Source: Eubacteriales bacterium (lineage in GTDB: Bacteria; Bacillota; Clostridia; Tissierellales; GPF-1). Taken from it: a stretch of DNA of 59,165 bases. The translations under genes and the position numbers were made by a program. Within the stretch, counting starts at the first letter, position 1. Every line of letters begins with the position of its first letter. The stretch spans positions 1 through 59,165 of the forward strand of contig DAOUQF010000007.1 of assembly GCA_030625815.1 (NCBI GenBank). Direction: 5' to 3'. Below are positions 19,146 through 52,250 of this stretch, piece by piece. The notes beneath the pieces are model-generated. The model had not been told where the DNA came from, ran no database searches, and saw only the letters and a list, made by a program, of their open reading frames with translations.

Positions 19146-19188
19146 AAAAAAAGGAATACGCGCACACTAAAATCGTGCCACTTATTCC
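19146..19188 (-). terminator. Riboswitch expression-platform terminator
   Basis: On the minus strand GGAATA (19188-19183) pairs with TATTCC (19158-19153) with further GCAC/GTGC pairing inside, followed by seven T (19152-19146). It lies immediately after the second glycine aptamer and 33 bases before gcvT, so glycine can decide between termination and readthrough. Confidence 0.82.
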
Positions 19189-19348
19189 CTGTCTTCTTTA
19201 CCTGAAAGATCGCGGTCGATCCGCTTGCCCCTTCGGTGCCAAACTGGTCTCTCCAGAGTTCCGTCCCTTAACGCTTCGTGTGCCTGAAAGTTTCTGAAAC
19301 GATAGGCTGACGTTTCATTGCTCCTTCGGCTCTCTCCCCCTTCGAGAT
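19189..19348 (-). promoter_or_regulatory. Tandem glycine riboswitch (two aptamers)
   Basis: Read on the minus strand, the first aptamer (about 19345-19258) has GGGGGAGAGAGCCGAAGGAG and CTTTCAGGCA, and the second (about 19257-19189) has CTGGAGAGACCAG, GGCACCGAAGGGGCAAGCG and CTTTCAGGTAAAGAAGACAGG. These are the conserved parts of the gcvT RNA element. It controls the glycine cleavage operon; in the known Bacillus case glycine turns transcription on. Confidence 0.94.
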
Positions 19349-19591: not shown

Positions 19592-20239
19592 ATGTCGATT
19601 TTACAAGAAATCGAAAAGAACCTACTAAATATCAACGGCGTCTCAAATTGTCGCGTCATGGGAGATAATCAGACAATCGATGAGATTCATATCATCAATC
19701 AAACGCCAAGATCTCCAAAGCAAATTGCACGCGATGTCGAGAGTTACATAAAAACAGCTTACAAGATTGATTTGAATCACAAAAAGATCAGCATAGTCAA
19801 TCTTGACATCCCTGTAGCTGCCGAAGAAAAGAACGAAGCCTTTGAATTTGGAAAAAGAATCTCATTTGAAAACCTATCCATTACTCAAGGAGGGCGTCAG
19901 GCCGTCATTCAACTTGAATTGGGATTTGACGGACAGATGTTCAAACGACAAGAAACCTCCATCAACATTCCTGACCTTCGCTACAACGAAATAGGAAAAC
20001 TCACTTTGGGGCTTGCGCAGGAAGTCTGCGAGGATCAATTGATTTTTGCCTTGAATTCAATCCGGATCGATCAAATTGCAGGAAACGATATTGTTCTTGC
20101 ATTGGTTACGATCATATCCAATGGGGAGGCCCGATTAAACGTAGGAAGCGCAATTATTCGAGATGATATTCATTCAGCAATTGTAAAAGCTGTATTGGAT
20201 TCGATAAATCGTATTGTTTCCTTCTTGAAAATCAATTAA
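19592..20239 (+). CDS. Conserved hypothetical protein with N-terminal ICNGV-like domain
   Basis: 215 residues, soluble, no signal peptide or membrane segment, with GAGAGGAG ahead. I do not recognise a named family. The first 70 residues (LNINGVSNCRVMGDN, then EIHIINQTPRSPKQIARDVE and NHKKISIVNLD) resemble a domain found at the start of uncharacterised proteins in Firmicutes and Actinobacteria. Residues about 85-215 form an alternating beta-strand/helix region (AVIQLELGFDGQMF, IVLALVTIISNGEARLNVGSAII, then a final helix) that could be a small ligand-binding or assembly domain. It lies 97 bases before the structured leader and peptide gene on the same strand. Confidence 0.7.
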   Translation: MSILQEIEKNLLNINGVSNCRVMGDNQTIDEIHIINQTPRSPKQIARDVESYIKTAYKIDLNHKKISIVNLDIPVAAEEKNEAFEFGKRISFENLSITQGGRQAVIQLELGFDGQMFKRQETSINIPDLRYNEIGKLTLGLAQEVCEDQLIFALNSIRIDQIAGNDIVLALVTIISNGEARLNVGSAIIRDDIHSAIVKAVLDSINRIVSFLKIN

Positions 20240-20276
20240 AATAGTGATTAAGTCGATTGTATGTCAGAGCGGAGCG

Positions 20277-20335
20277 GATATAGCCTGTGTTAACTAGCGA
20301 AAAAACACAGAGCACCTATATCAGGAGGCTATATC
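20277..20335 (+). promoter_or_regulatory. Leader RNA with two mutually exclusive hairpins
   Basis: GATATAG (20277-20283) can pair with CTATATC (20316-20322), extended by CTGTGTT (20285-20291) with AACACAG (20304-20310). Alternatively GATATAGCCT (20277-20286) pairs perfectly with AGGCTATATC (20326-20335), which covers half of the AGGAGG ribosome site at 20323-20328. The first fold leaves that site open, the second hides part of it. I do not recognise a known riboswitch class. Confidence 0.5.
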
Positions 20336-20336
20336 G

Positions 20337-20414
20337 ATGAAAAAAGTGATTTCTGTATTGACTACATTAGGAGCACTTATTCTTGCCGGTGGTTCACACG
20401 TTGGCTGGCTATAA
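20337..20414 (+). CDS. 25-residue hydrophobic peptide
   Basis: ATG at 20337 lies 8 bases after a perfect AGGAGG. The 26-codon frame encodes a peptide beginning MKKVISVLTTLGALILAGG and ending SHVGWL before TAA. The layout is that of a short signal peptide or membrane peptide: two lysines, a hydrophobic core of about 14 residues, and a small-residue AGGS region that could be cleaved to leave a short C-terminal piece. No cysteine and no AgrB-like neighbour, so it is not a classical AgrD. It sits 89 bases before the membrane HD-GYP gene. Chance occurrence is possible but the ribosome site and leader argue against it. Confidence 0.5.
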   Translation: MKKVISVLTTLGALILAGGSHVGWL

Positions 20415-20503
20415 GATGCCCTCAGTATATTAAACTAACGTTCTTGTAAAATGAAAACACTGACTGACATGCAATCGACCTTATTCAATAAAAGGAGCAC
20501 CCC

Positions 20504-21784
20504 ATGGGTAAACAGACGAAAATCTATTTGGGTTTTATTTATATCTTGGGAAGCGCTTTGTTGTATTATTTATTCAAGGGTTACACCCTGCTTGATGTTC
20601 AAGTATCCAGCCTTCACATTGCCTTCTTCATGGCTTTGGCTATTGTTACTGAATCTCTACAAGTAGGCTATCGAGACACCTCTATTAGTATCGGATTTGC
20701 TGTCAATTTAGCTGCTTATACTCTTTTCGGACCTTTTGTTACCGCGATTATTGTTTCTGTCGGATTCCTTTTTCGAATAACGAAAAAAGGGGATCAGCGG
20801 GTCCATTTTCTAAATACCCCTTGGTTCAAAAGTCTATTTAACGCAATGAATATGATTATTTGTGTATTCCTTGCCAGCTTATTCAGCGAATTTATCTACC
20901 CTGTACCACAATATCTCTATTTTTCAGAAACTGTCGATTTTATGAACCTCTTGATTCCAGGGGTTTTTTATAGTTCATTCTTTGCAGTCATCAATGCAGC
21001 CCTTGTTGGTGGCTTATTTAGTACAATGGCTCCGAATAGCTTCAAACACTATTTTAAAGAACTTATAGGGATGACGTTCTTAAGCACTTTATCCATTGGA
21101 ATGTTCTTAGGTCTAATCCTTTCAGTCCTATTTAACTCATTAGGCGTAACAGGTTCGCTCTTGTTTTTTCTTCCTATTTTATACGCTCGATATACCTTTA
21201 AACTATACGTAGATATGAAGGATGCTTATCTGGTTACCATCCGCGCTTTGGCCAGCTCCATGGATGCCAAAGACCACTATACCCTGGGTCATTCCGAACG
21301 AGTCTCTGAATACTCGGAGGCGATCGCCAGAAAGATGAACCTTGGATATGATGAAGTTGAAAATATTCGTACCGCAGCCCTGCTTCACGATATTGGAAAA
21401 ATCGGGGTTCCGGATACGATTCTCAATAAACCGGGTCGTCTCAATGAAGAGGAATACAAGATCTGTCAACGCCATGCGGAAATCGGACACTCGATAGTCC
21501 ATGGCATCAGCTATTTGAACAAATGCGAAGAAATTATCCGCAGCCACCATGAGCGTTATGACGGAAAAGGCTACCCGGATGGATTAGCTGGAGATAAGAT
21601 CGCCTTAGAGACGTACGTCGTTGCTTTGGCAGATGCCTACGACGCCATGTCCTCGGATCGTCCGTACCGTACCGCCTTGCCGGAAGAAAAAATTCTTTCC
21701 ATTATTGCGGAGGAGCGAGGTTTTCAGTTTCACCCGAACGTCGTGGATGTTTTCTTATCCTTAAAAAAGGACGGAACCCTCTGA
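20504..21784 (+). CDS. Membrane-bound HD-GYP domain protein (probable c-di-GMP phosphodiesterase)
   Basis: 426 residues; AAAGGAG ahead of the ATG. Residues 1-225 form about seven transmembrane segments, an integral-membrane sensor region. Residues 235-426 are an HD-GYP domain: HSERVSEYSEAIARKM, the HDIGKIGVPD metal site at 295, HAEIGHSIV, HHERYDGKGYPDGL at 348 and DAYDAMSSDRPYR. The family hydrolyses cyclic di-GMP to pGpG or GMP, and the catalytic residues look complete. Translationally coupled to the following membrane-protein gene (TGATG). The upstream hydrophobic peptide is a possible ligand for the membrane part, by position only. Confidence 0.9.
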   Translation: MGKQTKIYLGFIYILGSALLYYLFKGYTLLDVQVSSLHIAFFMALAIVTESLQVGYRDTSISIGFAVNLAAYTLFGPFVTAIIVSVGFLFRITKKGDQRVHFLNTPWFKSLFNAMNMIICVFLASLFSEFIYPVPQYLYFSETVDFMNLLIPGVFYSSFFAVINAALVGGLFSTMAPNSFKHYFKELIGMTFLSTLSIGMFLGLILSVLFNSLGVTGSLLFFLPILYARYTFKLYVDMKDAYLVTIRALASSMDAKDHYTLGHSERVSEYSEAIARKMNLGYDEVENIRTAALLHDIGKIGVPDTILNKPGRLNEEEYKICQRHAEIGHSIVHGISYLNKCEEIIRSHHERYDGKGYPDGLAGDKIALETYVVALADAYDAMSSDRPYRTALPEEKILSIIAEERGFQFHPNVVDVFLSLKKDGTL

Positions 21785-22359
21785 TGATGTATGAACTCTT
21801 GCTTTATTCGATTATTCTAGGACTCGCCTTTGGCGGGTCTTTAAAGAAATTATGGGCTATTGATTTAAATGGATTTCCTTTCATCATGATCTCCGTGATT
21901 TCTTTGGCACTCACCAATTGGATGAGACGTTCGATCTATCTGCCGACTCTCCTCAGCCATCCTGCCATTGAAATGATCACCGCCGCAATTTATTTTTTGG
22001 CCTTTTTTATCCTTTTGATCTTTGTTTGGGTCAATCGAAATGAAAAGACCCTATTGCTTGTGGGGATCGGAATCGCGCTGAATATGATCGTCATCTTTTC
22101 CAATGGCGCCAAGATGCCTGTGGAACCAGCTCTCGCTCAGTCAATGGGACTGCTTGAAAAGGTTGCCTATCTGGAAACCAACGGATTTTATGCCCTGGCC
22201 GATTCATCCACTCAGCTTTATTACTTGGCCGATGTCATTCGAAATCCATTTTTGACGCCCTACATCGTGAGTCTTGGGGACTTCTTTATCAGCGGAGGAC
22301 TCTTTATCTTCGTTCTTCAGAAGATGCGTCAACCGCAAACCGAATCCATTCAAAAATAA
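21784..22359 (+). CDS. DUF5317-like small membrane protein
   Basis: 191 residues, five to six transmembrane segments (starting MMYELLLYSIILGLAFGGS). The stretch FSNGAKMPVEPALAQ followed by a soluble loop and a last helix resembles DUF5317 proteins of Firmicutes, whose function is unknown. It starts on the last base of the HD-GYP gene, so the two are made together and may form a membrane complex. The last five residues, ESIQK, are encoded by one arm of the terminator palindrome. Confidence 0.65.
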   Translation: MMYELLLYSIILGLAFGGSLKKLWAIDLNGFPFIMISVISLALTNWMRRSIYLPTLLSHPAIEMITAAIYFLAFFILLIFVWVNRNEKTLLLVGIGIALNMIVIFSNGAKMPVEPALAQSMGLLEKVAYLETNGFYALADSSTQLYYLADVIRNPFLTPYIVSLGDFFISGGLFIFVLQKMRQPQTESIQK

Positions 22360-46260: not shown

Positions 46261-46280
46261 GGAAACAATCATATATCGTC

Positions 46281-46376
46281 AGTACTCCGAGTCCTCTCAC
46301 CTACCGCAATGCCATGGTGCTTGGACCGCTGGGTTACAAGGGAAACCTTCTAGCCTCCCGTTTTGGAAAGGAGATA
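46281..46376 (+). promoter_or_regulatory. Moco (molybdenum/tungsten cofactor) riboswitch
   Basis: Conserved parts of the Moco RNA are present in order: CTCCGAG (about 46285), CTCACCTACCGC, ATGGTGCTTGGACCG, a variable GGGTTACAAGGGAAACC stem region and the highly conserved GCCTCCCGTTTTGGAAAGGAG near 46353, split as GCCTCCCG and TTTTGGAAAGGAG. The order matches the E. coli moaA leader. A Moco- or Tuco-type aptamer is thus indicated ahead of a FecCD-type ABC operon. Confidence 0.85.
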
Positions 46377-46402
46377 TTCTGGTTTACTTTGTCCGCAATC
46401 AT

Positions 46403-52004: not shown

Positions 52005-52038
52005 AAAAAAAGCCCTTAAATCCATATTGGATTTAAGG
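52005..52038 (-). terminator. T-box terminator
   Basis: CCTTAAATCC (52014-52023) pairs with GGATTTAAGG (52029-52038); the minus strand continues into seven T (complement of 52005-52011). Competes with the antiterminator formed around the T-box sequence. Confidence 0.93.
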
Positions 52039-52250
52039 ACGAATCTCTCCGCGGTGCCACCTTTGTTGGATGCGACTCGCATCCCGCTTATCCCGTAACG
52101 GCGGGAACCGGACCCGACTATGTCTTCATCGGCCATTTTGCAAGTCCATTCACCAAAAGTCTCTAGACAAGGCTTCCACCATTCCCCGCTCGCTATCCTG
52201 TTTCTTCCGGTTACTCTTCTTGCGCATCAATGTTTCCTATCGAATTGCAT
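52039..52250 (-). promoter_or_regulatory. T-box leader RNA, tRNA-Trp specific
   Basis: On the minus strand the leader has the stem I hallmarks GAGCGGGGAATGGTGGAAG, the specifier loop GAATGGAC with the Trp codon TGG at 52148-52146, and the T-box GGTGGCACCGCG at 52061-52050 followed by the terminator. Uncharged tRNA-Trp would promote readthrough into trpS. Confidence 0.95.

Follow-up and report, generated by a model that had tools for sequence, protein, structure and literature searches.

Comparison with related genomes shows that a short peptide gene and the gene for a membrane HD-GYP protein are inherited together at a locus of a Eubacteriales bacterium (GTDB lineage Bacteria; Bacillota; Clostridia; Tissierellales; GPF-1). 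The locus lies in a window, by which we mean the whole stretch of 59,165 nucleotides (nt) that was analysed (contig DAOUQF010000007.1 of assembly GCA_030625815.1, positions 1 to 59,165 of the forward strand). Its sequence leads us to favour, with a probability of about 0.62, a peptide ligand paired with a cyclic di-GMP (c-di-GMP) hydrolase under RNA control, in which the peptide would most likely be the ligand or a partner of the HD-GYP sensor and would probably be exported. A first-pass annotation of the window had described an AGGAGG ribosome site, a 26-codon frame (25 codons and a stop), a gap of 89 nt and the HD-GYP gene, all of which lie where it placed them (Table 1); it had missed a long-range RNA helix (P0) and a linked upstream gene (19592-20239), here called LeuAd.

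Conservation of the micropeptide gene

In the starting searches the HD-GYP protein matched 25 of 60 genomes at E 1e-60, and its membrane part matched 52 of 249 genomes of the order. All 35 distinct loci of the order that were read with upstream DNA carry a short open reading frame (ORF) at the equivalent upstream place (25 aa at 32 loci, 26 aa at one and 27 aa at two); about 18 places from the order search without a locus, and L030, which has no upstream DNA, lie outside this set. Within the class, a covariance model of the leader RNA gave 40 matches in 40 of 391 genomes, one in each, and a peptide stands behind 39 of them (that of L108 is atypical, and L107 runs into a contig end); the remaining match, L129 (E 0.005), is due to chance. 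A peptide is also present at 28 further loci of the phylum. Peptides of the phylum loci were taken from the list of ORFs in 23 cases, by automatic picking at L235, L236, L238 and L240, and by eye at L244 and L251; L245 and L251 are truncated at a contig end, and four hits below L251 lie outside the set. When the sensor domain rather than the RNA was used as the query, 33 matches were found in 32 of 236 class genomes, 32 of which fall at loci with a read peptide (one being the atypical L108 and two the paralogues L199 and L217), while the remaining match is a half-gene at a contig break (G329:C63) whose other half, L107, has a peptide.

The short frame that the first-pass annotation expected upstream of related HD-GYP genes is thus conserved, together with its ending, in the order, the class and the phylum, and neither of the outcomes that would have told against it, loss of the frame or its ending and frequent frameshifts, was encountered. 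The one frameshifted copy, L008 (G002:C65, 1221-1407), is a duplicate beside an intact one. It belongs to a cassette that a congener carries twice. In this copy the beginning of the peptide gene bears a tandem duplication of 40 nt, which has shifted the frame behind the ribosome site; an intact frame without a ribosome site of its own comes next, and the other copy of the cassette (L034/L153) is intact.

The usual product has 25 residues and consists of two lysines (KK), a hydrophobic stretch, a signal-peptidase-like site and a tail of the form xxxW[LIVF]. Among the 98 peptides picked automatically over all loci, 58 are of this length (range 19-34), and the last five residues include an aromatic one in 92, tryptophan in 74 and cysteine in a single case. 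The C-terminal pattern [AS]xG[AS]xxxxx fits 56 of the 58 25-mers. In the 55 distinct 25-mers L16 is invariant, residue 18 is always G, A or S, W24 is found in 46, and serine occupies residue 21 in six. Differences between the 25-mers, which for the analysis of selection were chosen by a pattern that requires G19 and a small residue at both 17 and 20, fall mainly at third codon positions (548, 234 and 741 at positions 1, 2 and 3), and pN/pS (non-synonymous over synonymous differences) comes to 0.38 in the core and 0.36 in the tail over 101 related, non-independent pairs. By this comparison the micropeptide is shown to be under purifying selection at the protein level.

As is the case for signal peptidase I substrates, in which a hydrophobic core is followed by small residues at -3 and -1, a small-G-small motif precedes the tail in 33/33 peptides of alignment A2, whose members were chosen regardless of that feature. 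Signal peptidase I would cut at this motif, and the predicted tail in the window is HVGWL. Counted from the putative cleavage site, the tail has five residues at 77 of 100 loci and tryptophan at its fourth place at 70 of 100 (the count of small -3/-1 residues over these 100 loci is in part a product of the anchor pattern). Tails range from 4 to 10 residues, and the final residue is among the more variable positions.

Co-variation of the peptide with the HD-GYP sensor

The C-terminal part of the membrane protein, with an HD_5 match (E 3e-33) and an HD/HHExxxGxGYP signature (H295 D296, H348 H349, G356 Y357 P358) invariant in 48 aligned rows, points to an enzyme that probably breaks down c-di-GMP. 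In the AlphaFold 2 (AF2) model (pLDDT 91.5) this part matches HD-GYP structures and the N-terminal part matches S-components of energy-coupling factor (ECF) transporters; the "seven-helix" description given at first pass is loosened by the model to six or seven membrane segments. Foldseek relates the N-terminal part to TmRibU with probability 1.00 and a TMt of up to 0.69, yet with E of only 0.1-0.15, and the VIA comparison to 4m58 gave Z 14.2 (rmsd, the root-mean-square deviation, 3.5; 188 aligned); a Z of such size can be common in helical bundles, the S-component rows nonetheless forming a consistent group. In the model, the sensor part has an ECF S-component fold of the RibU/ThiT/NikM type.

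A scan of peptide type against the columns of the sensor picked out residue 171, seven residues after N164, which is asparagine in 100 of 103 rows. W24 of the peptide goes with L171 (elsewhere in the phylum V, A or I), and I, L, V or F24 with F, Y or H171. Cross-tabulation of 99 rows gives 68 with tryptophan and a non-aromatic residue 171 and 24 with the converse, against 6 and 1 contrary rows; starting from 105 peptides, the table leaves out L107 and L245 (both at contig ends and without a sensor), L108, L242 and L250 (tail unanchored or doubtful) and L248 (gap at 171). For L099, L224, L244 and L247 the anchoring of the tail was reset by eye, at a time when residue 171 had been seen and these tests had yet to be run. 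With automatic anchoring the counts are 64 and 24, with 9 and 1 contrary, 4 unanchored and 1 gap; when the four rows are dropped they are 64, 24, 6 and 1.

On a sensor tree built with column 171 omitted, W24 changes seven times and the aromatic state of 171 six times, five of the six changes at 171 each coinciding with a change at 24 on the same branch, and these figures stay at 7, 6 and 5 when the four eye-anchored rows are dropped. The sixth change at 171 is one node off, at L223 (W24, F171) beside L211, L272 and L273 (L, V and I24, F171). When branches were drawn by length, none of 200,000 draws reached four such coincidences (the most was three). Among 1780 column-by-class tests column 171 scored 5e-8 and the next column 2.7e-4. 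In a comparable set of 57 loci the 24/171 pair scored 4e-10, the next HD-GYP pair 1.1e-6, the best LeuAd pair 3.2e-7 and the best DUF5317 pair 2.8e-6; pair and column scores take no account of branch length and are meant for ranking. These sequence comparisons are good evidence, short of proof, that 24/171 reflects a contact or a tight functional fit. The second-best pair, peptide residue 22 with HD-GYP residue 191, may be a further contact.

Several observations weigh against this interpretation or against export of the tail: 1) column 171 was found by scanning, and over all 100 rows 24/171 ranks first (5e-8) with 22/191 near (1e-7); 2) a conservative independent-pairs test gave 5 pairs in agreement, none contrary and 2 ties (p 0.0625), a value that reflects how few informative pairs exist; 3) a clade of six rows (L225-L227, L231, L233, L234) has M, L or F24 with G, A or V171, and L223 has W24 with F171, both breaking the rule; 4) a single helix runs from residue 180 into the cytosolic domain in the AF2 model, so that residue 171 would sit near the outside, and the charges of the loops disagree with the AF2 helices on this facing; 5) the tail is less variable than many pheromones, that is, not hypervariable; 6) the hydrophobic cores of L242, L244 and L248-L250 are short, the tails of L108, L242 and L250 could not be anchored, and the L108 peptide is atypical.

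The same data could be read as those of a membrane microprotein subunit, an uncut peptide packing against the HD-GYP sensor in the membrane, much as MgrB or SafA act on PhoQ, without any intercellular signal. The hydrophobic core, a length near 25 aa (58/98), the contact-like 24/171 pair and a tail that is not hypervariable all fit such a subunit. Its hydrophobic stretch would, however, measure only about 14 residues in the 25-mers, which by the usual rule is short for a membrane helix and ordinary for a signal peptide, a small-G-small motif stands at the expected (-3,-1) place in every A2 peptide, and a tryptophan is kept fourth in the tail at 70/100 loci while core lengths vary. We regard it as unlikely, though deserving to be kept in mind, and prefer the reading in which the peptide is an exported ligand.

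Leader RNA, long-range helix and neighbouring genes

Taken alone, the leader of the window has a fold only a little more stable than those of its shuffled versions (z -1.4, with 17 of 200 shuffles equally good), and the question was therefore settled by comparison. The aligned leaders have in common the motif AGCGNAGCG, a helix P1, a P2 hairpin with a TAGCG loop, and an overlap of the P1 3' strand with the ribosome site. In an alignment of 24 loci made without reference to structure, 95.8% of cells pair and double-change cells number 25 as opposed to 6.7 in shuffled controls (0/500); when the partner strand is shifted by one to three columns, pairing falls to 27-46%. An alignment of 70 loci fitted to the structure, and so biased towards the model, has double changes in 12 of 15 pairs (159 cells vs 32). 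P1 is rebuilt with different letters across families (GATATAGCC/GGCTATATC, GAGTTTGCC/GGCAAAC and GGAACAACC/GGTTGTTC). The compensatory changes in P1 and P2, which the first-pass annotation had suggested looking for, thus exceed the controls, as expected of a structured cis-regulatory RNA, and comparison shows that P1, which such changes have maintained, involves the ribosome site of the peptide in its pairing.

That annotation had proposed two mutually exclusive folds. The one that hides part of the ribosome site, P1, is conserved with covariation; the alternative (GGATATAG with CTATATC) can be seen in the window and is not conserved, the 5' strand and the linker forming a helix of at least 6 pairs at 9 of 70 loci, with about 5.3 expected from shuffled linkers. 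Its guess that the peptide or its short C-terminal product is a ligand of the HD-GYP sensor is supported by the conserved frame and ending, the purifying selection and the co-variation of the ending with the sensor; the two-state fold of the leader is not supported.

A second covariance model found 34 matches in 398 phylum genomes, 32 of them new, of which 28 were read. Rfam 15 has no fitting match at E up to 10 to the leader, be it that of the window or those of 11 related loci; two permissive matches near the leader, to snoRNA/psRNA families, are at chance level and far below the cut-off. Five leaders of distant relatives (L225, L226, L232, L239 and L246) have ACCGTRA in the linker before the ribosome site and GCGGT after the AGCG motif, which to the eye could pair as an extra helix.

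The leader and the peptide gene are together enclosed by P0, one arm of which lies just outside the leader and the other just past the stop codon of the peptide (for example TAAAATGCCGGCTA/TAGCCGGCATTTTA and CAATGCAGTAAACCCGAAT/ATTCGGGTTTACTGCATTG). Over 95 loci the best arm pair has a mean score of 30.8, compared with 16.7 when shuffled, and 79 of the 95 exceed the 99% level. At 67 loci (including L107, which has hardly any 3' region) a locus's own duplex averages -28.4 kcal/mol and swapped duplexes -17.9; the own duplex beats all 25 swaps at only 28 of the 67, the swap test being blunt because many loci have a GCCGGC core in common, and the shuffle test is the clearer one. The 9 nt past the GC core are rich in T (0.57, vs 0.34 between the stop and the arm), with TTTT in 36 of the 91 loci left after those with a P0 score under 22 had been dropped from the 95. 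P0 may serve as a terminator or as a processing stem, the peptide gene lying within its loop.

The ORF is contained in an RNA helix, the 3' arm of which comes before the HD-GYP start and is often followed by U; this is what would be seen if translation of the ORF mattered for HD-GYP expression, through P0 folding or attenuation, and the product of the ORF did not. Selection at the amino-acid level, residue-specific co-variation with the sensor and the persistence of the peptide at four loci without the RNA (see below) make a mere leader peptide improbable. Still less probable is a nascent-chain monitor, in which the peptide would stall ribosomes or report membrane insertion and so alter P0: a hydrophobic nascent chain encoded within structured RNA would suit that role, but tails of 4 to 10 residues vary the distance from tryptophan to stop, and the last residue is among the more variable ones.

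The order of genes around the RNA was compared in 59 neighbourhoods, 35 picked by the RNA (L094-L128) and 24 by the HD-GYP protein (L130-L153). LeuAd is adjacent in 58, the HD-GYP gene in 58 and the DUF5317 gene in 56; contig ends account for the absent LeuAd (L153), HD-GYP gene (L107) and one DUF5317 gene (L107), and L104 and L108 are without an adjacent DUF5317. LeuAd adjoins the RNA at 35 of 35 class loci and at all 28 further phylum loci, at 26 of which the sensor is adjacent as well, the other two running into a contig end. Taken together, the genuine RNA matches that were read all adjoin LeuAd, except one that a contig end cuts off. LeuAd occurs in 32 of 245 class genomes: 26 have an RNA match, and the other six fall below the model threshold yet have the peptide. 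Conversely, four sensor loci (L186 and the paralogues L197, L199 and L217) have the peptide without the RNA and LeuAd, no LeuAd being found within 4.4 kb upstream of L186; the tails of the other three are GMKWG, GMKWG and MHKWG (fuller forms GIAGMKWG and GVAMHKWG). Thus the peptide goes with the sensor and the RNA with LeuAd. The three paralogue loci are HD-GYP and DUF5317 paralogue pairs, with a terminator-like hairpin and T run visible by eye between the peptide and HD-GYP genes.

Fixed neighbours of this kind, a single RNA match per genome in 40/40 class genomes with a match, and co-variation with the sensor leave hardly any room for a small hydrophobic toxin to which the HD-GYP operon is merely a neighbour, the size and hydrophobicity of the peptide notwithstanding.

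Table 1. Features of the locus in the window.
Feature	Coordinates	Strand	Remarks
LeuAd, 215 aa	19592..20239	+	C-terminal part weakly resembles LeuA allosteric domain (NF002085, E 1e-4)
P0 5' arm, long-range helix	20252..20267	+	16 pairs with 3' arm
Conserved AGCGNAGCG motif	20268..20276	+	AGCGNAG in 68/70 loci; one of the two misses is a contig-end cut
P1 5' strand (GATATAGCC)	20277..20285	+	covariation; final C common to P2
P2 hairpin CTGTGTT/AACACAG	20285..20310	+	loop TAGCG 20295-20299, in 68/70 loci
Ribosome site AGGAGG of micropeptide gene	20323..20328	+	sequence
P1 3' strand (GGCTATATC)	20327..20335	+	covers last two G of AGGAGG
Micropeptide gene, 25 codons + stop, MKKVISVLTTLGALILAGGSHVGWL	20337..20414	+	signal-peptidase-like site after S20; W24 co-varies with sensor
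P0 3' arm	20464..20479	+	shortly 5' of HD-GYP ribosome site
Ribosome site AGGAG of HD-GYP gene	20493..20497	+	sequence
Membrane HD-GYP protein, 426 aa	20504..21784	+	N-terminal ECF S-component-like sensor (L171), C-terminal HD-GYP domain
DUF5317 membrane protein, 191 aa	21784..22359	+	start overlaps HD-GYP stop

Neither a significant domain nor a PDB relative was found for LeuAd; against PF08502, the LeuA dimerisation domain, 6 of 42 members score at E up to 0.1 (best 0.005), the protein of the window reaching 12.2 bits vs a cut-off of 24.9. The DUF5317-like protein called at first pass is a clear member of PF17248 (E 1e-26, 94 bits vs a curated cut-off of 25), and its start lies within the HD-GYP gene as had been described. 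The family has two invariant aspartates, D150 and D166, which suggested an LspA-type peptidase for the peptide; the profile comparison with LspA did not reach significance, hhalign giving a probability of 0.5% and one local stretch on the SxGD / NxAD motif. In the PDB, Foldseek reached E 1.1 at best and a second structure comparison Z 5.6 at best, with no sequence relative. DUF5317 is spread more widely than the cassette (92 of 391 class genomes), most of the loci that have it alone lying outside the examined set. Away from HD-GYP genes its neighbours include a CdaA-type c-di-AMP cyclase immediately downstream of it (L195), a PrsW protease (L192), SecA (L200, L203), and rubrerythrin with a PGA_cap protein (L213); DUF5317 may be tied to cyclic dinucleotides more generally. 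At L210, L211, L212 and L223 it heads long frames (at least 544 aa) whose remainder has no Pfam match.

Elsewhere in the window, Rfam recognizes a glycine riboswitch aptamer (19179-19266, minus strand), a molybdenum cofactor riboswitch (46273-46389, plus strand) and a T-box leader (52032-52236, minus strand).

Proposed mechanism and relation to known systems

In the mechanism that we propose, the peptide would enter the Sec pathway and be cut after the small-G-small site or left anchored. Its tail, usually xxxWx, would sit in the S-component-like sensor near residue 171 and set the activity of the HD-GYP domain, so that c-di-GMP would follow the level of the peptide. With P1 closed the peptide would not be translated; a trans-acting factor or ligand would open or lock P1, LeuAd being the first candidate because of its association with the RNA. 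As a terminator or processing stem, P0, after which U is frequent, may keep the output of the peptide apart from that of the HD-GYP gene. The fullest version of this scheme, in which an RNA-gated precursor the size of a signal peptide releases a tryptophan-containing pentapeptide (HVGWL here) that is read by a receptor of S-component fold wired to a c-di-GMP phosphodiesterase, with a LeuA-like protein gating the RNA, in several classes of the phylum, is put forward tentatively, as rather less likely than not; it would amount to a new principle of signalling, in which a peptide system feeds straight into c-di-GMP.

Known systems resemble parts of this arrangement. Rap-Phr, PhrK and AimP (TIGR04429, NF038040, NF033802) resemble it in having a tiny precursor of Sec type, the signal here presumably being, as in Phr peptides, its last few residues; 15 of 33 peptides match the Phr profile TIGR04429 weakly (E between 0.003 and 1), that of the window not at all. 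Phr-type receptors are cytoplasmic tetratricopeptide repeat (TPR) proteins, whereas here a membrane HD-GYP protein would act as receptor, and the precursor of about 25 aa lies inside a structured RNA. The agr system, with its cyclic lactone autoinducer, likewise has a short precursor beside a membrane sensor, but there a cysteine (or serine) fifth from the end makes the (thio)lactone ring. As the first-pass annotation had argued from the lack of cysteine, a classical agr system does not fit: cysteine is found in 1 of 98 peptides, the ring residue is not a feature of the family, and the conserved neighbours are LeuAd, HD-GYP and DUF5317 (no search aimed at AgrB was made).

MgrB and SafA, small proteins that act on the membrane sensor PhoQ, are comparable as short membrane peptides acting on a sensor protein; here the partner differs, being an HD-GYP protein with an S-component-like domain, and residues co-vary across several clades. 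MASE and seven-transmembrane (7TM) families are membrane sensor domains of c-di-GMP enzymes, and here an S-component fold appears to stand in such a place, ahead of the HD-GYP domain; unlike in ECF transporters, no transporter partner is among the conserved neighbours, and the likely ligand is the product of an adjacent gene. Translational cis-regulatory RNAs (riboswitches and protein-bound leaders) also hide a ribosome site in a conserved helix, but the present RNA, with no Rfam 15 match, governs a micropeptide, and a single long-range helix encloses the two.

No such system is described in the titles and abstracts of the literature searched or in passages of PMC6429828, and DUF5317 is named in no paper of that literature, preprints and most subscription journals lying outside its coverage. 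The micropeptide family, the RNA family and the coupled HD-GYP receptor are each of a known kind, and it is for their combination that we know no match.

These results add an RNA family absent from Rfam and a micropeptide family unnamed in Pfam and NCBIfam, and they give DUF5317 its first context. To our knowledge, what membrane HD-GYP proteins sense is largely open; in this case the genome itself names the likely ligand of such a sensor, and, if this is true, peptide signalling would be linked directly to c-di-GMP.

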